DNA from: Gemmatales bacterium | GTDB taxonomy: Bacteria > Planctomycetota > Planctomycetia > Gemmatales > HRBIN36 | Assembly (NCBI GenBank): GCA_025055835.1 | Contig: JANWWR010000049.1 | Coordinates: 1 to 35,390, forward strand | DNA: 35,390 nucleotides | Direction: 5' to 3' | Part shown: piece after piece, positions 3,652 through 15,642 of the stretch | How the letters are laid out: each line of letters starts with the position of its first letter | Numbering within the stretch: the stretch's first letter is position 1 | Program-made: the position numbers and the translations under genes | The notes under the pieces: model-generated | What the model was told of the DNA's origin: nothing | Database searches by the model: none | What the model saw: only the letters and a program-made list of their open reading frames with translations

Positions 3652-4611
3652 TCACTTGTTCAGCAGATGCGTCGAAATCTGGATCGCCGCCGGACCCACC
3701 AGCACTACGAAGATGCCGGGGAAGATGAACAGCACCAGCGGGAAGATCAGCGTCACCGCCGTCTTGGCCGCCTTCTCCTCGGCGATCTGCTTCCGCCGCG
3801 TCCGCATCGAATCCGACTGCACCCGCAAGGCCTGGGCGACGCTCGATCCGAAGCGGTCCGCCTGGATCAGAATCGCCGCCAGGCTTTTCACGTCATCCAC
3901 GCCCGTCCGCACTCCCAGATCATGCAGCACGTCCCGCCGCGGACGGCCCATCTGGAGCTGGAAATTGGCAATGGCCAGCTCCTCGCACAGCACCGGGGCA
4001 TGGCTCTTCATCTCCTCGCAGACCTTCCGCATCGCCGCGTCCAGTCCCAGCCCGGACTCGACGCACACGACCATGAGGTCCAACGCATCCGGCAGCGTCA
4101 GAAAAATCTGCTGCTTCCGCTTGCGGATGAGATACCACAACAGCAGGTCCGGCCCCCACATGCCGATGGCGGCAAACAACGCCACCCATTTCAGCGAGCC
4201 GAAGTTGAATCCGCGTCCCGGCACGAACAACGCCAGCCCCAGGAGTACCATCGCGATCAGGAAGATGAACTTGATGCCGGTGTACACCGACACCGCCTTT
4301 TCGGAGCGGAAGCCGGCATTGGCCAGTTTCACCCGCAACTGGTTCTGCTCCAGTTCCGTCTTCGGCATGAGCGGCTTGGAAAAAGCGGTGGCCTTTTCCA
4401 GAAGCTGCTGCATGTGCTCGTAGCGGGAACGCGCTTCGGCATGCTCGCCGGTCGCCTCGACCGCCTGCGGGCCTTTCTGGAAGCGTTCCAGACGCTTCTC
4501 CGCCCGACTGTTCCGCGACGAGATCGCCGACAGAAACACCCAGATCGCTCCGATGATCCCCCCGGCCACGATCAGCGGGGCCACGTCTCTGAGCGTGATG
4601 ACGTTTTCCAT
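3652..4611 (-). CDS. tadC: TadC-type inner-membrane platform protein (T2SS F family)
   Basis: A 319-residue membrane protein with an N-terminal helix (about residues 10-27), a pair of helices around 115-165 and a C-terminal helix pair ending the protein (LIFPLVLFIFPGIFVVLVG). The T2SSF region holds the diagnostic LPDALDLMVVCVESGLGLDAA, here about residues 180-200. In Tad systems TadC pairs with TadB as the platform on which the TadA ATPase acts. GGAGGAG lies nine bases before the ATG. It follows tadB directly (43-base gap), the usual order. Family certain; TadC rather than TadB is assigned from gene order. Confidence 0.92.
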   Translation of the reverse strand: MENVITLRDVAPLIVAGGIIGAIWVFLSAISSRNSRAEKRLERFQKGPQAVEATGEHAEARSRYEHMQQLLEKATAFSKPLMPKTELEQNQLRVKLANAGFRSEKAVSVYTGIKFIFLIAMVLLGLALFVPGRGFNFGSLKWVALFAAIGMWGPDLLLWYLIRKRKQQIFLTLPDALDLMVVCVESGLGLDAAMRKVCEEMKSHAPVLCEELAIANFQLQMGRPRRDVLHDLGVRTGVDDVKSLAAILIQADRFGSSVAQALRVQSDSMRTRRKQIAEEKAAKTAVTLIFPLVLFIFPGIFVVLVGPAAIQISTHLLNK

Positions 4612-4654: not shown

Positions 4655-5638
4655 TCACACCTTGATGGTCACGATCTTCTTGATGGCGATGGCTCCGAGA
4701 ATCTGCATGACGATGGCGAACACGCTCATCTTGATGCCGAACTCCGTGGTCCACAGCAGTTCCACGTAGGCCGGGTTCAGGTACAGCACCACGAAGAACA
4801 ACGCCGGGCACAGGGCGATCAGCACGACGCCGCTGAGTCGGCCTTCGCCCGTCAACGCCTTGACCTGACCGAGGATGCGGAACCGCTCCCGGATGACGTA
4901 GCCGATCTTGTCCAGAATTTCCGCCAGGTCGCCGCCGGTGGTCCGCTGGATGATGACCGCGGTGACGAAGAAGCGGAGGTCGAGGTTCGGCACCCGTTCG
5001 CACATCGCCTTGAGCGAATCCTCCATGCTGATGCCGAGGTTCTGCTCCTCGTACACCCGGCCGAATTCCGTGGCGATCGGAGCCGGCATCTCCTCGGAAA
5101 CGATGTGCATCCCCGCCGCCAGGCTCTGTCCCGCCCGCAAGGCCCGGGCCAAAAGCTCCATCGCATCGGGAAGCTGCGAGGCGAACTGCTTGAGCCGCTG
5201 GTTCCGCTTGAACCACAGCCAGCACCACGGCACGCAGAACAGCACCAGCCCGGGCAGCGGAGCCAGGTAGATCGGAATCCGCATAAGCCAGCCCAGCGAG
5301 AACCCCAGCAGCAACAGGATCAGCGAGATGCCCGTCAGGGTGCTGGGACGCACATTGACGTCGGCCTGCTCGAAGATGCGGTGGATCGAGGGCAGCGTGG
5401 GAAGCAGCTGGTCGAGCAGGTTCTTCTTGTCCTCCTCGAACGCCTGCTCCTTCCAGATTTCCTGGACCTTGTCCACGGCCGGGGCGCCGTCCTGGCGTTT
5501 CTGCCCGGTGTAGATGTCCAGGCGTTCTTCGCCGCGGGCCTCGCGGCTGCGGAGCATCAGGCCGACCACGCCGAACACCGCCACCACCGCCAGGAAGGCG
5601 AGCATCGGCAAAATAAGCGTCAACAGATTCATGGTCAT
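4655..5638 (-). CDS. tadB: TadB-type inner-membrane platform protein (T2SS F family)
   Basis: A 327-residue protein with an N-terminal membrane helix (residues 5-28), a soluble segment, a helix pair at about 100-145, the T2SSF signature LPDAMELLARALRAGQSLAAG at about 160-180, and a C-terminal helix pair. It contains TGGDLAEILDKIGYVIRER, which is highly typical of TadB. It sits between tadA and tadC with gaps of 58 and 43 bases. AGAAAGG upstream supports the first of two nearby ATG codons. Its predicted role is the inner-membrane base of the Flp pilus apparatus. Confidence 0.94.
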   Translation of the reverse strand: MTMNLLTLILPMLAFLAVVAVFGVVGLMLRSREARGEERLDIYTGQKRQDGAPAVDKVQEIWKEQAFEEDKKNLLDQLLPTLPSIHRIFEQADVNVRPSTLTGISLILLLLGFSLGWLMRIPIYLAPLPGLVLFCVPWCWLWFKRNQRLKQFASQLPDAMELLARALRAGQSLAAGMHIVSEEMPAPIATEFGRVYEEQNLGISMEDSLKAMCERVPNLDLRFFVTAVIIQRTTGGDLAEILDKIGYVIRERFRILGQVKALTGEGRLSGVVLIALCPALFFVVLYLNPAYVELLWTTEFGIKMSVFAIVMQILGAIAIKKIVTIKV

Positions 5639-5696: not shown

Positions 5697-7073
5697 CTAA
5701 TCGCGCAAGAGGATGCGTTCCTGGAACAGGTTCGTCGGCAGACGAATACCGGCCGCTTCCAATTTGCTGATGAACTTGGGCCGCACGCCGGTGGCCTCGA
5801 ACTGGCCGAAGGCCCGGCCGTTCTGGTCGATGCCCAACTGCTTGTAGCGGAAGATGTCCTGCATGATGATGACGTCTTGCTCCATGCCGCAGATCTCGGT
5901 GATGCTGGTGACCTTGCGGGGACCGCCCTGGAGCCGGTTCGCCTGGATGATGATGTCCACCGAGGAGGCGATCTGCTGCCGCATGGCTTTCAGGGGCAGT
6001 TCCATGCCCGCCATCATGATCATGGTTTCGAGTCGGGCCTGGGCGTCACGGGTCGAGTTGGCGTGGAGCGTGGTCATCGAACCGGCGTGGCCGGTGTTCA
6101 TGGCCTGGAGCATGTCCAGCGCCTCGGCCCCACGGCACTCGCCGATGATGATGCGTTCCGGCCGCATACGCAGGGCATTGCGAACCAGGTCCCGGGTCGT
6201 CACCGCTCCCTTGCCCTCGATGTTCGGCGGCCGCGTCTCCAGCCGGACGACGTGTTCCTGCTGCAATTGCAACTCGGCGGCGTCCTCGATGGTGACGATG
6301 CGTTCATCGTTGGGAATGAAGGCCGACAACGTATTGAGCAGCGTCGTCTTTCCGCAGCCGGTTCCGCCGCTGATGATGATGTTGAGCCGGGCCTTGATCG
6401 CCGCCTCCAGCACCATCGCCATCTCCGGCGTGAAGGCCTTGAAACTGAGCAGGTCTTCCAGCTTCAGCGGGTTGGTGCCGAAGCGGCGGATGCTCAGCGA
6501 CGGACCGTCCAGGGCCAGCGGCGGGATGATGGCGTTGACGCGGGACCCGTCGGGCAGACGCGCGTCCACCATCGGCGACGTTTCGTCCACACGCCGCCCC
6601 ACCTTGGACACGATGCGGTCGATGATCTGCATCAGGTGCTGGCTGTCCCGGAACTTCACGTCGGTCTTTTCCAGCTTGCCCCGGCGTTCCACGTACACCT
6701 TGTACGGGCCATTCACAAGAATGTCGCTGACCGTCGGGTCTTTCAGCAGCATTTCCAGCGGTCCGAAGCCAAACGTCTCGTCGAGAACCTCGTCGATGAG
6801 CCGTTCCCGCTCCATGCGGTTGAGCAGCGGGTTCTCGGTATCGCAGAGGCGCTCGACGACCAGGCGGATCTCCCGGCGAAGCACGTCGCCGGACAGATCC
6901 GAAACCCGCGACAGGTCGAGTTTCTCGACGAGCTTCATGTGAATGACCCGCTTCAGCTCATCGAAGCTCTTGTTGCCGGACTGACCGCCCAGCGAAAGCG
7001 CGCCGTTGGACAGGCTGCGGCTGACGGTGCCGCCTCCGCTGACGTTCGTCGTTCCCCGTGTGATGCGCGACAT
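5697..7073 (-). CDS. tadA: TadA/CpaF secretion ATPase of the Flp pilus
   Basis: A 458-residue type II/IV secretion ATPase (GspE/PilT superfamily). Visible motifs: the N-terminal [22 protein letters not shown] typical of Cpa[20 protein letters not shown], Walker [14 protein letters not shown] near residue 235, an Asp box ([12 protein letters not shown]), Walker [21 protein letters not shown], and the His box [12 protein letters not shown]. All catalytic elements look intact. It should power pilin extrusion through TadB/TadC. The ATG at 7073 is preferred to a GTG nine bases upstream because GAGAG is correctly spaced for it. The gene lies between tadZ and tadB, the canonical order. Confidence 0.97.
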
Positions 7074-7192
7074 GGTGTCCACTCTCGACTGCCTGGGTTC
7101 CTGAGCCTACCCTCGCCAGGGGTTCCCTTCCTCGGGAACTGGAGACTCCGCGAGGGACCGATCGCAGGGCCGTCCCGCCCCGCACACCTGCC

Positions 7193-8401
7193 TCAAAAGA
7201 ACAGAAAGCTCTTCTTCTTCTCCGGTTTGGCGGCCGCGCTGCCGTTGAGAACCAACTGCCCCCCGCTCAAGGCGCTGGCCATGCCGACGATGGCCTGGCA
7301 GGCCTTGGAGCGCGGAGCGTGCTGGATCAGGGGCACCCCGGCGTTGCGGGCCGACATCACGTTCCGCGTGTCGTTCGGAATCTGCCAGAACACCGAACGA
7401 CCGATGGTTTCTTCCGCTTTTTTCAGGGTGATTTCTTCGTCGTCCGAGCCGACCCGGTTGAGCACGACCCGCACCTTGTCCGCCAGCCCCTCCAAGTTGT
7501 TGAAAGCCATAAGCAGGCGAACGACGTTGCGGATGCTGGACAAGTCGAGCTGAGCGACCAGAAGCACGATGTCCGCCATCTGCATGGCGGTGAAATCGAG
7601 CGGGCGGTAGCTTTTGCTCAGGTCGAGAATCACATGGGAGTAGGTGACCTTGAGCAGGCCAAGCACCCGCTGGAGATGCTCCTCCTGGATCAGCCCCGCG
7701 TCTTCGAGCTGGACCGGATGCGGCAGCAAGGACAGTCCCGTGGAATGCTTGATGAGCGAGCCTCGCAGGAACGTCATGTCCAGCCGGTCGATGTTCATGG
7801 CGACGTCGGCCAGGGTGTAGCTGGGCATGATGTCGAGGCTGACGTCGGTGTCGCCGAGGGCCAGATCGAGGTCGATGAGCACGACGTTGTTGTGCGAGTC
7901 CTGGGCGAGGACGGAGCCGAGGTTGACGGCCAGCGTGGTGCTGCCGATGCCGCCGCGCGACCCGGCCACGGCGATGACCGTCGAGCTCGCCGAGGGGCCG
8001 AAGCCGTTCAGTTCCGGGCTGCTGTGCCGCTGGGTGCGGATCCGCTGAAGGGCGGTCAGAAGGTCCTCCAGGGCCAGGGGCTGCGTCAGGAATTCCCGGG
8101 CACCACTGCGAAGCGTCTGGAGAATGAACGGTCCGTCGGTTCGGGAACTGACCGCCAGGATCGCCAACTGGGGCATCGCAGAGGCCAGTTGTCCGATCAG
8201 ATGCAGGGCTTTGTTGTGGTCGCTGTCCATGACCACGATGGCGATGTCCGGTTGGGACTGCTGCACGACTTCGAGGAAGAACTCGTAGCGGGGCGACTCG
8301 GCTTCGAGCCAGACGGAATCCAGGCCGAGCAGCAGGTTCCGGAGCGGCTCGCGGGTCGCTTCCGAGGGATCAACGATGGCTACACGTTGCAGGTCGGGCA
8401 T
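7193..8401 (-). CDS. tadZ: TadZ/CpaE pilus localisation protein (receiver-like plus ParA-like domain)
   Basis: A 402-residue protein. The first ~120 residues form a response-regulator-like domain (VAIVDPSEATREPLRNLL). It is followed by a ParA/MinD-type domain whose P-loop reads GSRGGIGSTTLAVNLG near residue 145. The usual catalytic Lys of KGGxGKTT is replaced, as is common in CpaE/TadZ proteins. Downstream hallmarks are VVLIDLDLALGDTDVSLD, VILDLSKSYRPLD and VRVVLNRVGSDDEEITLKKAEE. TadZ places the Tad machinery at its site in the cell. ATG at 8401, with GGTGG just upstream, is preferred over an upstream GTG at 8491 that lacks a ribosome-binding site. The C-terminus is short and Lys/Phe-rich. 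Confidence 0.94.
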   Translation of the reverse strand: MPDLQRVAIVDPSEATREPLRNLLLGLDSVWLEAESPRYEFFLEVVQQSQPDIAIVVMDSDHNKALHLIGQLASAMPQLAILAVSSRTDGPFILQTLRSGAREFLTQPLALEDLLTALQRIRTQRHSSPELNGFGPSASSTVIAVAGSRGGIGSTTLAVNLGSVLAQDSHNNVVLIDLDLALGDTDVSLDIMPSYTLADVAMNIDRLDMTFLRGSLIKHSTGLSLLPHPVQLEDAGLIQEEHLQRVLGLLKVTYSHVILDLSKSYRPLDFTAMQMADIVLLVAQLDLSSIRNVVRLLMAFNNLEGLADKVRVVLNRVGSDDEEITLKKAEETIGRSVFWQIPNDTRNVMSARNAGVPLIQHAPRSKACQAIVGMASALSGGQLVLNGSAAAKPEKKKSFLFF

Positions 8402-8497
8402 GACACCACCGATAGGGCGAAGGGCTGCATCCAAGCAAGGTGCCTCCACCAACGTCGGTCGGCGGAGAGCACCTTGCCAGGCAGCGGACACACGCTT

Positions 8498-10303
8498 TTA
8501 CGGATCAATGCGAGCGGGGGTGCCATCCGTGGTTCCCGACTCGCCCGTTTTCGTCTTTTCCGGCCGGACCGGGATCTCCAGTTTGCCATCGATCTTTTCC
8601 GGTTCCGGAAGGAGCACATGAACCCGCGTCACCGAACCGGCAGACGCTGGGACGACGCCTTCAGCCGGGGTCGCCGAAGTCGCCATGGGGGGCATGGCGG
8701 GACGGGCATTGGGAACCGACTCCCCGGAGGCAGGGGCTGGGCTGTTGCAGCCGGAGCACCCGCCCGGCCCGTTGACGCAGCCGGGACCGCCCGAGCAGCC
8801 GCGGAGTGGATCGCAGAACGGCCCCGTCCACCAGTGCGCCGGGCGATAGCAGCCGTCCGGGCACAAGTCCCGCGGACCGCGGGGAGCTTCCAGGATTCCT
8901 TCCAAGAATAGCTCAAAATCGGTGGGCGTGCGCGTTTCCTGGCCAGGCAGTTTGGTCGTCCGCTGCGTGCAGTCCATCGGATCGACCAGCCGCGGCGTGA
9001 CGATAACCAGCACTTCGATCTCGCGTTCCCGGTAGCTCACCGTCCGCCAGGCGGAACCGAAGAAGGGCAAATCACCCAGGACCGGCACCTTGCTCGTGTT
9101 GGCCACCACCTGGTTTTCCAGCAGGCCGCCCAGGGCGAAGGTCTCGCCGTGGCCCATCTCCACCGTCGTGTGGATGCGATTCGTAGCAAATGACGGAGCG
9201 ACGATGTTCGGATTGCCGATTCCAGCCACGTTCGCGTTGGCGATGGTGCTGACCTCGGCTTCGATCTCCAGCCGGATGCGGCCGTCACCCAGCACCACCG
9301 GCAGGAAGGTCAGCCGGGTGCCGAAGGGCCGGAACTGGATGCCCGAGCCACCACCGCCGCTGATGCCCGCCGCACCCGCCGTACCGTAGGGAGCGTCGCC
9401 GCCGACCAGGAAGGTAGCCGGTCGGCCGCTCAGTGTGACCAAAGTCGGGTTGGCGATGTCCTTCACCAGGCTTTCCTGCCGCAGGGCTTGGAGGAACGTG
9501 TGGATGCCCGAGTTCCGCGTAGTCACGCCGAAGAACAGATTGCCCAGGTTCGGATCGAATCGTCCGATGGGCTGACCGCCCGTACCAAAGATGGCGGGCA
9601 TGGGACTGGTCGGCGGGCTGGCCGGTTCAAACAGAATCGGTTGCTGAACCACCGGCCCGATGGTGCTGCCGAGGTACTGGCCGTTGACGTTCTGGAAGAA
9701 GTTGAAGCCCAACTGCCGCAGTTCCGAGCGGTCCACCGTGGCGACGCACACTTCCAACTGCACCTGCTGCACGCCGCCGACCTTGATGTTGTTCACCACG
9801 CGGAAGCCGTAACCCTGGAGGAAGGAGACCAAAGCGGCCACGTCCTCGGCCACGTCCATATGTCCGGAAACCAGAATCGCTCCCGTGCCGGACAGCGACA
9901 GCGTCACCCGGGCCATCGGGAACTGTCGGTTGACGATGGCCTGGATGTGGCTGAGGTCGGGGATGACGTTGATGATCACGGTGTTGCGTTCGTCCTCCGG
10001 TTCGGTCACGAGAGTGACGCGGGTCGAACCGAGGGCTTTGCCCGTGATCTGGACCACGGTCGGCTGGTCAGGCGCGACCTGGGCGACGTCGATGACGTCG
10101 GCCCGGGACACGACCACGGCCTTGATGTCCTTGCCGTTGGCCGAACGCAGCGTCAGCTTCTGGCCGATGCCGATGTCGTACGTCTCGCGCCCCCCGCCGC
10201 CGGGTTGCGCGTGAACACTCAGACCGGTCAGCGCCAAGGCGGCGAGCAGTCCGAAGACGGCCCAGCCGCGTCGCGGGATCAAAGGATTTGTGTGCGCGTG
10301 CAT
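8498..10303 (-). CDS. rcpA: RcpA/CpaC outer-membrane secretin of the Flp pilus, with Cys-rich tail
   Basis: A 601-residue protein with a signal peptide (hydrophobic GLLAALALTGLSVHA). An N-terminal pilus-secretin domain follows (IGIGQKLTLR...), then a BON-like piece with GYGFRVVNNIKVGGVQQVQLEV. The secretin core contains LVKDIANPTLVTLSGRPATF, VGGDAPYG, ALGGLLENQVV and VLGDLPFFGSAWR. After the core (about residue 455) a ~145-residue extension begins with a Cys-rich stretch (CPDGCYRP, CDPLRGCSGGPGC, GGCSGCNSP), unusual for secretins. ATG at 10303 is chosen because GAGGTG lies six bases upstream and a good signal peptide follows; 39 codons of open frame before it lack these features. It should form the outer-membrane channel for the pilus. 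Confidence 0.95.
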   Translation of the reverse strand: MHAHTNPLIPRRGWAVFGLLAALALTGLSVHAQPGGGGRETYDIGIGQKLTLRSANGKDIKAVVVSRADVIDVAQVAPDQPTVVQITGKALGSTRVTLVTEPEDERNTVIINVIPDLSHIQAIVNRQFPMARVTLSLSGTGAILVSGHMDVAEDVAALVSFLQGYGFRVVNNIKVGGVQQVQLEVCVATVDRSELRQLGFNFFQNVNGQYLGSTIGPVVQQPILFEPASPPTSPMPAIFGTGGQPIGRFDPNLGNLFFGVTTRNSGIHTFLQALRQESLVKDIANPTLVTLSGRPATFLVGGDAPYGTAGAAGISGGGGSGIQFRPFGTRLTFLPVVLGDGRIRLEIEAEVSTIANANVAGIGNPNIVAPSFATNRIHTTVEMGHGETFALGGLLENQVVANTSKVPVLGDLPFFGSAWRTVSYREREIEVLVIVTPRLVDPMDCTQRTTKLPGQETRTPTDFELFLEGILEAPRGPRDLCPDGCYRPAHWWTGPFCDPLRGCSGGPGCVNGPGGCSGCNSPAPASGESVPNARPAMPPMATSATPAEGVVPASAGSVTRVHVLLPEPEKIDGKLEIPVRPEKTKTGESGTTDGTPARIDP

Positions 10304-10372
10304 CCGTTCACCTCGCTTGAAAAAACCGATCCGTCGGGATCTGGTCGGTTCCCGTGAAATCGCCCGCAGAAC

Positions 10373-10412
10373 GATCCTCTCCAGGGCCTTGATCCTGAAG
10401 GCTTCAACGGGG
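10373..10412 (-). repeat. 40-bp imperfect repeat element, copy upstream of rcpA
   Basis: On the minus strand this stretch matches 11515-11554 at 29 of 40 positions, including an unbroken 14-base match CCTGGAGAGGATCG at its 3' end. In the other copy that 3' end supplies the ribosome-binding region of cpaB. Here it lies about 70 bases before the chosen rcpA start. It may be a decayed duplication of a leader segment or a shared regulatory element. Confidence 0.5.
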
Positions 10413-10570
10413 AAGACCACCGGAACGGGCCGTTCTCGGCAGTCTTCCGCCGGCGGACCGCGGGTCAGTCCGCGATGCCGTGCCGCTGGAGAGGATTTCC
10501 CGGCCCTGAGCTGCCCGCACCTCGCCCTTCCCCCCTCCGCCAGGGCGAGATCACGGGCAAGCGTCGGCCG

Positions 10571-11509
10571 TCACGGTTTCTTGACCGAAGACTTGTCTTT
10601 GTCGCCGTCGCTCTTGTCCTTTTCCTCGATCTTCCAGTCGTAGGTCGTCACCTTGTCGCCGAGGATGACCGTCAGGGTCTTCTTTTCCGGCGTCTTGGCC
10701 GTCACCTCGGCCGGCAGTTCGTTGACCGCCGCCGGGACCGTCGGCGCGCTGGGCAACGGCGTGGTTGCCGCGTTGTCCGCCGCACCAGCTCGTTCCTCCG
10801 ATGTCAGATGATTCGCTCCCAGCCGCGTCCCCGTGCTGTCCACGTAGGTCGTGTCATCATGGCGGCGCGGCAACAGGCGGATGGTGCCGGTGTCTTGATA
10901 CAGGGCCAGTTCCTCCGCCTGCTTGTGCGTCACCCGCAGCAGCACGCGGTTAGGCTCCTTGTAGATGGTGCCGTCCGGCTGCTGCACGTCCTGTCCCACG
11001 GCCAAGACCTCGATGTTCTGCAGGATGAACTTCGAGAACGGCTTTTCGTTGGGACTGGAAGTCCGCACGATGGTCGCCTGCACGTCCACGCGGTCGCCAG
11101 GCATCAGGAAGCCGGCCCCGGCGGTGTCGGCGCTCACTTTGACCGACATGGCCAGTTCCCCGGGATTGAGCTTCCAGGTCGGCGACGACTGGGCGGGATC
11201 GACCAGATCGCTCTCGGCGAGCATCTTGCCCTCGCCCAGGGCGGTCTTGAGGACCCGTCCCTTGACCGTCTCGAAATCGGTGACGGCATCCTTGGGAACG
11301 CTGTTCTGATCGAAGAGCCGTTCCTCGAACGCTTCTGGATCCGTCAACCGGGTGTAGCCGTTGATCTTCTTCTTGGCCACCAACACGCGGACTTTCGCCT
11401 CCTCCTTGGGAGCCTGCTGGCCCGCAGACAGGTAGCGGCTGGTCATGAAGCTGGCCACCAGGCCGCACGTCACCGCCACCAACATGAGAATGACCGTTCG
11501 GGGTTTCAT
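10571..11509 (-). CDS. cpaB: CpaB/RcpC Flp pilus assembly protein (SAF domain)
   Basis: A 312-residue protein with an N-terminal membrane anchor (VILMLVAVTCGLVASFMTSRYL, residues 5-26) and then VRVLVAKKKINGYTRL, the start of the SAF domain found in CpaB/RcpC. The core has GKMLAESDLVDP, NPGELAMSVKVSADTAGAGFLMPGDRVDVQAT and LQNIEVLAVGQDV, a classic CpaB order. The C-terminal ~90 residues are Lys/Glu/Ala-rich and less conserved. RcpC/CpaB is periplasmic and acts with the secretin in the Tad outer-membrane complex. It lies between tadV and rcpA. A GAGAGGA ribosome-binding site precedes the ATG. Confidence 0.94.
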   Translation of the reverse strand: MKPRTVILMLVAVTCGLVASFMTSRYLSAGQQAPKEEAKVRVLVAKKKINGYTRLTDPEAFEERLFDQNSVPKDAVTDFETVKGRVLKTALGEGKMLAESDLVDPAQSSPTWKLNPGELAMSVKVSADTAGAGFLMPGDRVDVQATIVRTSSPNEKPFSKFILQNIEVLAVGQDVQQPDGTIYKEPNRVLLRVTHKQAEELALYQDTGTIRLLPRRHDDTTYVDSTGTRLGANHLTSEERAGAADNAATTPLPSAPTVPAAVNELPAEVTAKTPEKKTLTVILGDKVTTYDWKIEEKDKSDGDKDKSSVKKP

Positions 11510-11763: not shown

Positions 11764-12354
11764 CTAACCGCCCGACATCAGCAGCAAATACCCCACGAAA
11801 CCGATGCACAGGGGGACGCCGTAAGGCAGCAGGTGCAGGCGGGGCTTGCGTTGCTGGGCCTTCTCGGCAACCTGGTAAATGCTCTTGGAGCGGAACCAGT
11901 CGCCGACGATCTCGGCCACGTTCTTGCGGTTTTGGCGGAAGTCTCCCCGCCACCAGATCATGCCCAGGGCGATGACGCCCCCGATGATCGCGGCGATGGC
12001 AAAGGCGTACACCACGATCCAAAACCCGGCGTACAGGCCGTACATCGCCCCGACCCACGAGCCGAAGCCCATCTGCATCTTCACGTCGCCGGCTCCCATG
12101 CCGCCGATGGCATACACCGGCAGCAGCAGGGCCAGTCCCACCAGCGTCAGAACAAAGCTCGCTCCCAGGTAACTGAAGTCCCCGGCGTAGAGGCTGTTGC
12201 CCAGACCCAGACACCAGCCGCTGACGATGAGTGGAAAGGTGAGCCAATTGGGCACCTTCAGCTTCCAGAAATCGATGATCGCGGCGGTGATCAGGGCCGC
12301 GCACAGGATCAACACCGGGACGTTGCCCAGGGAGAAGAACTTTTCCAGGTCCAT
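11764..12354 (-). CDS. tadV: Prepilin peptidase TadV/CpaA (A24 family)
   Basis: A 196-residue polytopic membrane protein with about five or six helices. Both catalytic Asp motifs of the type IV prepilin aspartic peptidases are present: IIDFWKLKVPNWLTFPL near residues 24-40 and GGMGAGDVKMQMGFG (the GxGD motif) near 87-101. There is no N-methylation domain, as usual for the short CpaA/TadV type. It should cleave the Flp prepilins encoded immediately upstream (12529-13304) after their conserved Gly. It is separated from the pilin genes by an intrinsic terminator hairpin, so its expression depends on read-through or on another promoter. Confidence 0.94.
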   Translation of the reverse strand: MDLEKFFSLGNVPVLILCAALITAAIIDFWKLKVPNWLTFPLIVSGWCLGLGNSLYAGDFSYLGASFVLTLVGLALLLPVYAIGGMGAGDVKMQMGFGSWVGAMYGLYAGFWIVVYAFAIAAIIGGVIALGMIWWRGDFRQNRKNVAEIVGDWFRSKSIYQVAEKAQQRKPRLHLLPYGVPLCIGFVGYLLLMSGG

Positions 12355-12411: not shown

Positions 12412-12459
12412 ATAAAAACGGCGGCGTGCCGTGGGGCCGGAGCATCACGGCGCGCCGCC
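12412..12459 (-). terminator. Intrinsic terminator between the pilin genes and tadV
   Basis: On the minus strand a 14-bp stem, GGCGGCGCGCCGTG with its partner CACGGCACGCCGCC (one G-T wobble), is capped by a 12-base loop and followed one base later by TTTTTATC. This is a textbook Rho-independent terminator. Placed after the third-transcribed pilin gene, it would let the pilins be made at far higher levels than the machinery genes. Confidence 0.85.
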
Positions 12460-12528
12460 TCGCTGTCTGTGCAGCCTTGGTCCGAGTTGAGAACGTCGTC
12501 TCGCACCACGCCGCGAAACCGGCCCCTG

Positions 12529-12702
12529 TTAGCTCAGAGCGCCGTTGACCGTGTTGAACGTGCTGCTGGCGCTGGTGCCGACCTGGGTGATCACCGCGAT
12601 GCAGACCACGATGATCAGGGCCAGCATGACGGCATACTCGACCGCCGTCGGGCCGTCTTCGCTCACCACGAAGCGCTTCACCGAATCCAGGAACTTACGC
12701 AT
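12529..12702 (-). CDS. flp: Flp family type IVb pilin, copy nearest tadV
   Basis: A 57-residue prepilin: a short basic leader (MRKFLDSVKRFVVSEDG), the Flp processing site G17-PTAVEY with the mature Glu5 and Tyr6 conserved, a hydrophobic helix (VMLALIIVVCIAVITQV) and a short tail. TadV should cut after Gly17 to give a 40-residue mature pilin. It is almost identical to the neighbouring copy at 12817-12990: the 133 bases from 12531 to 12663 match with a single mismatch. AAAGGAG precedes the ATG. The stop is TAA and the intrinsic terminator at 12459-12412 follows. Confidence 0.95.
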   Translation of the reverse strand: MRKFLDSVKRFVVSEDGPTAVEYAVMLALIIVVCIAVITQVGTSASSTFNTVNGALS

Positions 12703-12742
12703 GGACACGACTCCTTTGAACTAGAACCCGTCCGAATCACGA

Positions 12743-12816: not shown

Positions 12817-12990
12817 TCAGCTCAGAGCGCCGTTGACCGTGTTGAACGTGCTGCTGGCGCTGGTGCCGACCTGGGTGATCACCGCGATGCAGACCACGAT
12901 GATCAGGGCCAGCATGACCGCATACTCGACCGCCGTCGGGCCGTCTTCGCTGGTCACGAACCGCTTGACCGATGCCAGGAACTTCTTCAT
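12817..12990 (-). CDS. flp: Flp family type IVb pilin, middle copy
   Basis: A 57-residue prepilin (MKKFLASVKRFVTSEDG leader, cleavage after Gly17, mature PTAVEYAVML...). From residue 15 onward it is identical to the copy at 12529-12702; only the leader differs. At the DNA level 132 of 133 bases match over 12819-12951, so the duplication is recent or kept uniform by gene conversion. AAGGAG lies upstream of the ATG. It should be a main pilus subunit. Confidence 0.95.
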   Translation of the reverse strand: MKKFLASVKRFVTSEDGPTAVEYAVMLALIIVVCIAVITQVGTSASSTFNTVNGALS

Positions 12991-13130: not shown

Positions 13131-13304
13131 TCAACTCAAGGCCCCGGCCGCGTTGTTGAACGACGAGGAAACCGACGTGCCCAGCGTCGTGATCGCCGAA
13201 ATGCAGACGATGATGATGAACGCCAGCATGACGGCGTACTCGACCGCGGTTGGGCCGTCCTCGCTTCGCAGGAAGCGCTCTGTCAGGTGCCACAACCTCC
13301 GCAT
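13131..13304 (-). CDS. flp: Flp family type IVb pilin, first in the operon and divergent in sequence
   Basis: A 57-residue prepilin (MRRLWHLTERFLRSEDG leader, cleavage after Gly17, then PTAVEYAVMLAFIIIVC). It keeps the Glu5/Tyr6 signature but differs from the two downstream pilins at many positions of leader and tail (ITTLGTSVSSSFNNAAG). It is the first gene behind the c-di-GMP riboswitch and terminator; 46 bases separate the terminator T-run from its ATG, and GAGGGG upstream serves as ribosome-binding site. An open frame continues in phase upstream to 13700, but it runs through the riboswitch and is not credible as a longer start. Confidence 0.94.
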   Translation of the reverse strand: MRRLWHLTERFLRSEDGPTAVEYAVMLAFIIIVCISAITTLGTSVSSSFNNAAGALS

Positions 13305-13350
13305 AACCGCCCCTCGCTTCGAAGAATGCTGTTGCCCGACGCCTTGGTGT

Positions 13351-13405
13351 CCCCCAAAAAAGCCGCAAGGCCCGATCACCTCGGAAAAGGTGGCCGGGCC
13401 TTGCG
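13351..13405 (-). terminator. Intrinsic terminator forming the riboswitch expression platform
   Basis: Minus-strand stem CGCAAGGCCCG (13405-13395) pairs perfectly over 11 bp with CGGGCCTTGCG (13374-13364). The 20-base loop holds an inner CACCT/AGGTG stem, and the outer stem is followed by GCTTTTTTGGGG. This is a strong Rho-independent terminator placed 16 bases after the riboswitch and just before the first pilin gene. There is no gene on this strand upstream for it to terminate, so its evident job is conditional attenuation of the leader transcript. Whether ligand turns transcription on or off cannot be decided by eye. Confidence 0.88.
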
Positions 13406-13421
13406 TGCAGCAGGACACCGT

Positions 13422-13510
13422 CCAACCTTTCGGCAGCCTGGCGATCCGGGTTTCCGGACCCATGGCTTTGCGTCCCCGCCTTACGACGGGTTTGCCTTTG
13501 TCGAGGTCGG
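13422..13510 (-). ncRNA. Cyclic di-GMP-I (GEMM) riboswitch of the Tad pilus operon
   Basis: The minus-strand sequence contains the GEMM-I core: GGCAAACC, a stem CCCGTC/GGCGGG capped by the GNRA tetraloop GTAA, then GACGCAAAGCC, a second arm GGTCC...GGATC, and the closing GCTGCCGAAAGG. Flanking CCGACCT (13510-13504) and AGGTTGG (13428-13422) form the basal stem P1 (7 pairs, one G-T). The base equivalent to G20 of the V. cholerae Vc2 aptamer is G (13496), which favours c-di-GMP over the A20 variants that prefer cGAMP. It lies in the leader of the pilin/Tad operon, between a sigma-70-like promoter and an intrinsic terminator. The 355-base gap 13305-13659 is thus regulatory, not coding. Confidence 0.93.
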
Positions 13511-13581
13511 CGACTTGCGATTTGTCGAGGACCGGACGGGTGGCGTCTTCGCCCTGTCCCGTGCATCCTTCACTCGTTTGA

Positions 13582-13610
13582 AACCTAGGTCGCTTCCAAG
13601 GGCTTGTCAA
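13582..13610 (-). promoter_or_regulatory. Sigma-70-type promoter of the riboswitch/flp/tad transcript
   Basis: Minus strand: a perfect -35 box TTGACA (13610-13605), a 17-base spacer and TAGGTT (13587-13582), which keeps the three most conserved -10 bases. Transcription would start near 13575, about 65 bases ahead of the riboswitch, giving a leader of roughly 270 bases before the first pilin ATG. Confidence 0.68.
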
Positions 13611-13659: not shown

Positions 13660-15642
13660 ATGAACTCAGCGCGGATTTCATGGCACGAAAGCGACCGCAT
13701 GGCCCGGCTTGCCGATCTTCTGGATCATCTCGTTGCCCTGGCCGATCCCGCAGGCGGCTGGGGCTACTACCCGAAAACTCCGCCCCAGGTGGAACCGACC
13801 TGCCTGGCCCTGCTCGCCTTGGCAGGCGACCGACAACGGCACGAAGAAATCCTTCGCAAAGCCGTGACAACCCTGTGTCACTGGCAGGATGCCGACGGCG
13901 CGTTCCGCATCCGCGGCGGACGGGAGGAGGCCGTCTGGCCGACCGCTCTTGCCCTGCTGGTCCTGGAATGCTTCGAAGTGGATGTCGCCGTCCGGTCCAA
14001 GGCTGTCCAATGGCTCCTGCACACCAGCGGCCGCAAACTCGAGGATCCCGAAGCCTATCGCCGCGATTTTGACATCGACCCGGAAATCCTCGGCTGGCCC
14101 TGGACCGAAGGCACGTTCTCCTGGACAGAGCCGACCGCCTGGGCCTGCCTGGCCCTGCGCCGGGCCGGGTTCGGCGAGCATCCCCGCGTTCAGGAAGGCT
14201 TGCGGCTGCTGCTCGACCGGACGTTCGACACCGGGGGCATCAACGCGGGCAACCGTCGCGTCTTTGACCGACCCACGGAGCCGGTGCCCAGCGTCAGTGC
14301 CCTCATGCTGCTGGCCTTTGCCGGACTGCCCGATCACCCTCGGCTCGCAGCCACGCGTCGCTATCTCCTCAACGTCTCCCAACGGGATGCCGACCTGGAA
14401 CACCTGGCTTGGATTCGTCTCGCCCTCCAGCCCTGGCGGCATGATCCCGTGGTCGCCGACCATCTTCCCACCCTCGAAGGGCACCTGGCCGAGTGCTATG
14501 AGGAACGCAGCCGACGCAGGCTCTTCGGCCCGTCGGTCGTCCGGGAGGCCCTGACGGCCCTGGCTCTCCATGCCGAGAACGCCGAACGACTGTTCGCAGT
14601 GCCAGCGAGTCCCGTGCAACCGCCAGCAGATCCTCCGCCCCACCGCGCCGGCAGGTCCTGGACCGACCGGCTCATTTCCGGCTTGCGAGGTCTGGGCATT
14701 AAGGCCCTCGCTCAGCTTCGCGCTCTCCCGGCCCAAACCGCCGTCCACATTGCCTCGGTTGCCGACTACGACGGCGACCTCGTTGCGATTCTGGAGCGGC
14801 AATTCGCCTGCTTCCGCGATCAGGTTCCCTTGGCTGGAAAGCGCGTCGTCCTCAAACCGAACCTGGTCGAGTACCATCAGGACCGCGTTATCAACACCGA
14901 TCCTCGGTTGATTGGTGCGGTGATTGAAATGTGTCAACGGGAGAAAGCGGCGGAGGTCATCGTCGCCGAGGGGCCGGGACATTGGCGAAACACGGAGTAC
15001 CTCGTCGAAGCCAGCGGACTGGGCGACATCCTGCGGAAGCACGGCGTGTCCTTCGTAGACCTCAACCATGATGAGCCGGTGGCCGTTCCCAATCTCGGCC
15101 GACTGACCGGCTTGGAGTTTCTGCACCTGGCCAGGACCGTTGTCGATGCCGACGTCCTCATTTCGTTGCCCAAACTCAAAACGCACCACTGGGCCGGGGT
15201 CACGCTTTCGCTTAAAAACCTGTTCGGCATCGTGCCGGGCATCTGCTACGGCTGGCCGAAGAACGAACTGCATTGGCGGGGCATCGAGAACAGCATTGTG
15301 GACATTGCCCTGACCCGCACGCCGGAGTTGGCCATCGTGGATGGCATCCTGGCAATGGAAGGCGACGGGCCGCTCAACGGCACACCGGTGCCGCTCGGCG
15401 TCATCGTCATGGGCACGGACCTGGTGGCCGTGGATGCGACCTGCTGTCGGCTCATGGAACTGATTCCCGAGCGGGTCGGCCATCTGGCCCTGGCGTATCG
15501 TCAAAGGTTGGGGATTCTGCCGGAAGAACGGATCGTGCAGCTCGGCGAGGCCATTCGCGACCTCAGTCGGCCGTTCGAGACGTTACCGCGATTCTCTCAT
15601 CTGCACGCTGACGGACGGCAAGCGGCGATGGGCAACGTCTGA
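13660..15642 (+). CDS. Fusion of an alpha/alpha-toroid (prenyltransferase-like) domain to DUF362
   Basis: A 660-residue protein with two parts. Residues ~10-300 carry toroid-type repeats seen in terpene cyclases and prenyltransferases (PAGGWGYYPKTPPQVEPTCLAL, WTEPTAWACLALRRAGF, EPVPSVSALMLLAFAG). The catalytic DxDD of squalene-hopene cyclase is not seen, so this half is probably a binding or scaffold domain. After a Pro-rich linker, residues ~360-640 match DUF362 (VVLKPNLVEY, VLISLPKLKTHHWAGVTLSLKNLFGIVPG, ILAMEGDGPLNGTPVPLGVIVMGTDLVAVD). No ferredoxin-type Cys clusters follow. The gene is divergent from the pilus operon and upstream of rlmN. AGGTGG lies ten bases before the ATG. The biochemical role is unknown. 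Confidence 0.82.
   Translation: MNSARISWHESDRMARLADLLDHLVALADPAGGWGYYPKTPPQVEPTCLALLALAGDRQRHEEILRKAVTTLCHWQDADGAFRIRGGREEAVWPTALALLVLECFEVDVAVRSKAVQWLLHTSGRKLEDPEAYRRDFDIDPEILGWPWTEGTFSWTEPTAWACLALRRAGFGEHPRVQEGLRLLLDRTFDTGGINAGNRRVFDRPTEPVPSVSALMLLAFAGLPDHPRLAATRRYLLNVSQRDADLEHLAWIRLALQPWRHDPVVADHLPTLEGHLAECYEERSRRRLFGPSVVREALTALALHAENAERLFAVPASPVQPPADPPPHRAGRSWTDRLISGLRGLGIKALAQLRALPAQTAVHIASVADYDGDLVAILERQFACFRDQVPLAGKRVVLKPNLVEYHQDRVINTDPRLIGAVIEMCQREKAAEVIVAEGPGHWRNTEYLVEASGLGDILRKHGVSFVDLNHDEPVAVPNLGRLTGLEFLHLARTVVDADVLISLPKLKTHHWAGVTLSLKNLFGIVPGICYGWPKNELHWRGIENSIVDIALTRTPELAIVDGILAMEGDGPLNGTPVPLGVIVMGTDLVAVDATCCRLMELIPERVGHLALAYRQRLGILPEERIVQLGEAIRDLSRPFETLPRFSHLHADGRQAAMGNV

Follow-up and report, generated by a model that had tools for sequence, protein, structure and literature searches.

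Results

A c-di-GMP-I aptamer ahead of Tad pilus genes

Does c-di-GMP control adhesion-pilus genes of a planctomycete directly through RNA, and in which direction would such control run? The question arises at positions 13,351 to 13,610 of a 35,390-nt stretch of DNA from a Gemmatales bacterium (the window). This region is the 5′ leader of an flp-tad operon and is transcribed from the common planctomycete flp promoter (Table 1). Computation establishes the aptamer, its contact residues, its covariation in relatives and its recurrent place between the promoter and the first pilin gene. Judged from sequence, the aptamer probably binds c-di-GMP and changes pilin expression; direction aside, we put the probability of a c-di-GMP riboswitch regulating flp at about 0.75.

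Table 1 Features of the flp-tad locus in the window
Feature	Position	Strand	Basis
Promoter TTGACA-17 nt-TAGGTT	13582..13610	-	Read directly; conserved in sister species G001
5′ leader after promoter	13534..13581	-	Nearly every base identical in G001; pairings in MFE folds
c-di-GMP-I aptamer including P1	13422..13510	-	RF03167, RF01051, covariation in relatives
Candidate antiterminator, left half (P1 3′ strand and linker)	13406..13431	-	Pairs with terminator 5′ arm
Terminator hairpin, 12+6 bp	13364..13405	-	-32.4 kcal/mol; hairpin conserved in G001
T6 tract of terminator	13356..13361	-	Read directly; TTT in G001
Likely Shine-Dalgarno GAGGGG of flp1	13310..13315	-	Read directly, position only
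flp1 pilin	13131..13304	-	PF04964, E 3.1e-8
flp2 pilin	12817..12990	-	PF04964
flp3 pilin	12529..12708	-	PF04964
Second terminator-like hairpin and T5, flp3-to-peptidase gap	12414..12460 (approximate)	-	-29.7 kcal/mol
Prepilin peptidase (Peptidase_A24)	11764..12354	-	PF01478
RcpC/CpaB	10571..11509	-	PF16976
Secretin (RcpA/CpaC-like)	8498..10420	-	PF00263; true start may lie downstream of 10420
TadZ/CpaE-like ATPase	7193..8491	-	PF13614, PF00072, weak TadZ_N
TadA ATPase	5697..7082	-	PF00437, E 1.4e-67
TadB	4655..5638	-	PF00482
TadC	3652..4611	-	PF00482

Rfam covariance models found one riboswitch in the window, on the minus strand at 13505-13428. It scored significantly against RF01051 (c-di-GMP-I; 74.7 bits, curated cut-off 35), which bears out the GEMM-I aptamer proposed in a first-pass annotation of this DNA, with G20, the 7-bp P1 and the GTAA tetraloop where they had been placed. 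The best Rfam family, however, is c-di-GMP-I-GGC rather than plain RF01051 (RF03167; 77.2 bits, E 7.7e-17, cut-off 59). The core pattern GGCAAACC-GNRA loop-GGGACGCAAAGCC has a single match in the window and was found in 0 of 100 shuffles. P1 (CCGACCU/AGGUUGG, 13510-13504 with 13428-13422) contains one G-U pair, and the GUAA tetraloop can be read directly. Alignment to the model places the ligand contacts G20, A47 and C92 at 13496, 13469 and 13433, respectively; these three residues contact c-di-GMP in the Vc2 aptamer (PMC4744006), and all are kept here. The RF03167 consensus GACGCGAAG has G at the A47 position, from which we infer that "GGC" denotes G20-G47-C92, but the window has A (GACGCAAAG). 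For this reason the RNA is not filed as a GGC variant in spite of its top-scoring model, and canonical c-di-GMP recognition is expected; we treat it as a canonical c-di-GMP-I aptamer whose background is GGC-like.

In an alignment of 31 aptamers from relatives, 94.7% of cells were paired and 21 of 29 pairs had changed on both sides (0 of 500 shuffles), and this covariation supports the P1/P2/P3 fold of a c-di-GMP-I aptamer. The window copy is like RF01051 (GEMM-I) RNAs in its architecture, GNRA tetraloop, G20/A47/C92 residues and 5′ leader position, and differs from them in its flp-tad context within Planctomycetota and in extra conserved leader/linker pairings outside the aptamer. The 5′ leader between promoter and aptamer contains the hairpin ACGGG-GGCG-AAGA-CGCC-CCCGU, and its segments GGACA and CCGUCC are complementary to the linker GGACGGUGUCC; in folding models this pairing could form an outer helix.

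Pilin genes, Tad machinery and c-di-GMP proteins

On the strand of the aptamer, flp1 starts 124 nt past it, and the RNA is therefore not a gene-less orphan. Pfam identified the Tad/Flp genes of Table 1, all running in one direction and with TadZ resting on weaker evidence, in agreement with the earlier description of three pilin genes followed by the Tad machinery. The same annotation spoke of control over the whole operon, which is too strong, since a conserved terminator-like hairpin separates the pilin genes from those of the machinery. Both this second hairpin and its T5 are conserved in the sister species (G001), so that pilins and machinery may differ in expression level; the element is possibly an attenuator that keeps pilin expression above that of the machinery. 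A divergent gene adjoins the tad promoter (13660-15642, plus strand); its product is weakly terpene-cyclase-like at the N terminus and has a DUF362 domain. Searching viral contigs for TadA gave one weak locus, which was set aside.

Two GGDEF proteins are encoded in the genome; both have the catalytic GG(D/E)EF and keep Asp (GD) at the site that discriminates Hypr enzymes; cGAMP-making Hypr enzymes have Ser at this position. No EAL domain was detected in the whole genome beside these two proteins, and c-di-GMP breakdown may thus rely on another enzyme type. Four PilZ matches were also found, and the proposal that control operates without a protein regulator is not supported as it was worded. 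Direct gating of the pilus by c-di-GMP through RNA fared better in part: a c-di-GMP-I aptamer does lie in a Tad-operon leader of a genome with two GGDEF proteins, but control through a terminator is not a shared feature of such leaders.

Recurrence behind a common flp promoter

An RF01051 scan of 101 genomes (the window's own and relatives, mostly of the same order) gave matches in 59, and 25 of the 103 aptamer loci read had an flp gene 55-220 nt downstream (17 genomes, 11 genera). A second, protein-first sample comprised 79 flp loci located by pilin sequence in named genomes; 29 carried the aptamer, in every case upstream and on the same strand, among them loci of Lacipirellula limnantheis, Adhaeretor mobilis and Botrimarina colliarenosi. 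The search of other planctomycete tad loci suggested by the first-pass annotation recovered aptamer-bearing flp leaders in both samples, and the order promoter-aptamer-pilin is thus recurrent in planctomycetes. At the level of the phylum, 100 of 294 genomes sampled had RF01051 matches. In the family to which the window belongs, the other genomes retain flp genes and have no RF01051 match, so that the arrangement has been gained or lost. Two flp-linked aptamers (L070 and L080, the latter at 2110-2184) have A at position 20 (AGCAAACC), a substitution associated elsewhere with cGAMP binding.

The promoter consists of TTGACA (13610-13605), a 17-nt spacer and TAGGTT (13587-13582), as previously annotated; it is conserved in the sister species and belongs to the recurrent flp promoter of the phylum. 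A generic sigma-70 scan returned no promoter because TAGGTT fits TATAAT at only 3 of 6 positions. The comparative test instead sought a TTGAC-type -35, a TANNNT -10 and 15-18 nt spacing upstream of the aptamer. Such a promoter was present at 22 of 24 flp-linked and 27 of 28 protein-first loci (shuffled controls, 0.6%), at 0 of 17 orphan aptamers and at 2 of 61 other aptamer loci; it was also found at 31 of 50 flp loci that have no aptamer. Whether or not a riboswitch follows, planctomycete flp promoters (loci L140-L218) combine TTGAC(A/T) with a -10 of unusual sequence, in many cases CTAGGTT or ATAGGTT. The TTGAC/TAGGTT type is accordingly the common flp promoter of Planctomycetota, behind which the aptamer sits. 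Since nearly all aptamer-flp leaders carry the same promoter, aptamer and pilins very probably share one transcript, and the recurrent promoter is the best evidence that they do.

Leaders of relatives contain pairings of other kinds. In 19 protein-first leaders, mostly from Pirellulales, GCCUGC directly precedes P1, and its counterpart GCAGGC follows 60-160 nt past the aptamer; for this outer helix (GGCCUGC/GCAGGCC) the leaders' own pairs beat swapped ones, and 0 of 5000 permutations were as good. In Gemmataceae-like leaders P1 is followed by GGUCC, and GGACC occupies the loop of a hairpin that holds the Shine-Dalgarno sequence; own against swapped pairing of this linker/loop helix was not significant (p 0.31), covariation being thin. 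Together these pairings suggest translational control in the relatives.

No paper joining c-di-GMP riboswitches and Tad pili in Planctomycetes was found in the literature searched, in line with the earlier remark that no such case is known to have been described. This is weak evidence of novelty because subscription journals lay mostly outside the search. The RNA class itself is already known; the novelty, so far as the search can tell, lies in its repeated occurrence in the flp leaders of planctomycetes.

Terminator and competing pairings

The first-pass annotation described an 11-bp hairpin plus T6 behind the aptamer. Hairpin and T6 are present, but the hairpin is larger, with 12 bp and 6 bp flanking one C.A mismatch (18 bp), and on neither strand of the window is there a stronger combination of hairpin and T-run. 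The sister species has retained the promoter, 5′ leader, aptamer and hairpin, but its T6 is reduced to TTT. Among about 51 distinct flp leaders, four have a hairpin of -12 kcal/mol or lower followed by at least T5, and only that of the window is both strong and compact; the terminator is therefore a local feature. Control by termination, which the annotation had assumed, is accordingly not general among flp leaders (U-tract TTT in the sister species; strong terminator in 1 of 51 leaders).

The candidate antiterminator pairing has an energy of -20.6 kcal/mol, matched by 2.8% of shuffles in a local test within the window, a mildly significant result. It is retained in the sister species, but there 12% of shuffles are as strong, and tested against the whole leader it was not significant. 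As long as the 3′ arm of the terminator has not been transcribed, the antiterminator state is favored over the P1 state by 1.6 to 4.4 kcal/mol, a difference that bound ligand could overturn. Once the hairpin is complete, the terminator state is favored over the antiterminator by about 10 kcal/mol, so that switching would have to be kinetic. Forcing P1 in folds of the whole leader raises the accessibility of the Shine-Dalgarno sequence, which would point to an ON switch. These energy folds are weak evidence, because at least three segments could pair with the linker.

Other c-di-GMP-I RNAs of the relatives

Aptamers also occur in settings other than flp leaders. At 17 orphan loci (L058, L061, L063, L065, L068, L073, L080, L084, L087, L089, L092, L097, L099, L105, L108, L111 and L131) the c-di-GMP-I aptamer is followed by a near-constant linker GGGATGGACGGGACCCGTAAGTA, a strong hairpin and a T-run at 55-64 nt; no conserved gene lies behind it, the neighbours varying in kind and strand. 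These loci resemble merRNA of Bdellovibrio bacteriovorus, a c-di-GMP riboswitch RNA likewise without a conserved gene behind it and reported as not found outside Bdellovibrio (PMC3627812); the window copy differs from merRNA in having pilin genes 124 nt behind.

A second orphan class of 31 loci (including L037, L039, L047, L048, L057, L067, L069, L077, L091, L100, L101, L116 and L132) spans about 270 nt, with the aptamer enclosed by what looks like an outer helix (CCTGGATC/GATCCAGG) and conserved GGCGAAGAGCCCGTCCGTCCCCGG, GGTTACG and GGCTTGCCTTGCTTTTT after it. No conserved ORF was seen in this class, and at five loci scanned with Rfam the aptamer alone was found. Further aptamers lie immediately 5′ of secreted trypsin-like/PDZ proteases (L005, L036, L082, L096, L114, L119, L121, L122, L125, L127 and L130), one of them in the window's own genome (L005:8283-8365, C220); in several, the G21-C46 pair has undergone a compensatory swap (GCCAAAC with GACGGAAAG). 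At nine loci (L046, L078, L083, L086, L103, L109, L112, L117 and L118) the P1 tail GGAAT lies a few bases 5′ of an ATG, and the encoded proteins, one of them read as subtilisin-like, have an LEDRLVP-type N-terminal stretch.

Discussion

For the window species only, we propose that the switch is transcriptional. In the unbound state, the 3′ strand of P1 and the linker (GAAAGGUUGGACGGUGUCCUGC) would pair with the 5′ arm of the terminator and the polymerase would read into flp1; with c-di-GMP, P1 would retain its 3′ strand, the terminator would form and transcription would halt. High c-di-GMP would then lower pilin synthesis. This OFF direction, in which c-di-GMP represses the pilus genes, is predicted because the 3′ strand of P1 has the 5′ arm of the terminator as a second partner, and we regard it as roughly an even bet. 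Class I c-di-GMP riboswitches of C. difficile are transcriptional OFF switches, and in that organism a class I RNA on the flgB operon (OFF) and a class II RNA on a pilin operon (ON) likewise control surface appendages by termination (PMC11477304). There, however, the class I target is the flagellum and the class II target the type IV pilus, whereas the class I RNA of the window lies ahead of Tad/Flp pilins and belongs to a different phylum. Relatives that have no terminator would need the aptamer to act otherwise, probably on translation.

The first-pass annotation had left the direction open; the alternative pairing favors OFF, and Shine-Dalgarno accessibility conflicts with it. A translational or mixed ON switch is a tentative alternative, in which c-di-GMP would form P1 and so free the Shine-Dalgarno sequence for flp1 translation, the P1 5′ strand (CCGACCUCG) otherwise pairing with the Shine-Dalgarno region (CGAGGGGCGG), and in which the hairpin behind the aptamer would be merely a structural element or a constitutive attenuator. 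The complementarity is present in both species, forced P1 opens the site in the folds, the U-tract is not conserved, and other flp leaders do without a strong terminator, many having hairpins or long-range helices near the Shine-Dalgarno sequence. Yet the purine-rich Shine-Dalgarno sequence and the P1 3′ strand are alike, so that complementarity to the P1 5′ strand is easily fortuitous, and the T6 with its 18-bp hairpin is a textbook terminator. That terminator might also be constitutive, allowing a low basal level of flp under little or no c-di-GMP control, with the aptamer RNA serving mainly as a small RNA. The stability of the completed hairpin over the antiterminator would fit, as would the orphan aptamer-terminator RNAs of relatives, with their related linker (UGGACGG) and a T-run at a similar distance behind the aptamer (67 nt here), and the Bacillus c-di-GMP-I riboswitch Bc1, which has two terminators and hardly responds to c-di-GMP in vivo (PMC11218506). 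We nevertheless consider this unlikely: in many genera the aptamer follows the flp promoter although no terminator is present, which suggests that it serves flp expression, and that promoter is absent from the orphan loci.

A ligand other than c-di-GMP, either cGAMP or that of the GGC variant if different, could be argued from the best-scoring model and from A at position 20 in some related flp-linked aptamers. The three contact residues of the window aptamer are canonical, however, and both GGDEF proteins keep Asp rather than the Hypr-type Ser; cGAMP was set aside because G20 is intact, and we hold this reading to be very improbable.

If a c-di-GMP riboswitch does stand between the flp promoter and the pilins, the supply of Tad pili would be under direct RNA control by c-di-GMP. 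Speculatively, and with some doubt, Planctomycetia may possess an RNA-based c-di-GMP regulon of their own, in which a single type of aptamer, placed after a shared flp promoter, would directly control Tad pili through fast-diverging platforms (a terminator here, Shine-Dalgarno hairpins in Gemmataceae-like genomes, an outer helix in Pirellulales), with orphan c-di-GMP-I RNAs perhaps buffering or antagonizing the same signal. The attachment biology of Planctomycetota is little known, and the arrangement is present in named, sequenced strains (the Lacipirellula, Adhaeretor and Botrimarina species above), so that it can be tested without the window organism. In Caulobacter, Tad pili serve first contact, which precedes the rise in c-di-GMP (PMC13234629). 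Whether the planctomycete switch is ON or OFF would tell whether its pili serve first contact or the settled state.
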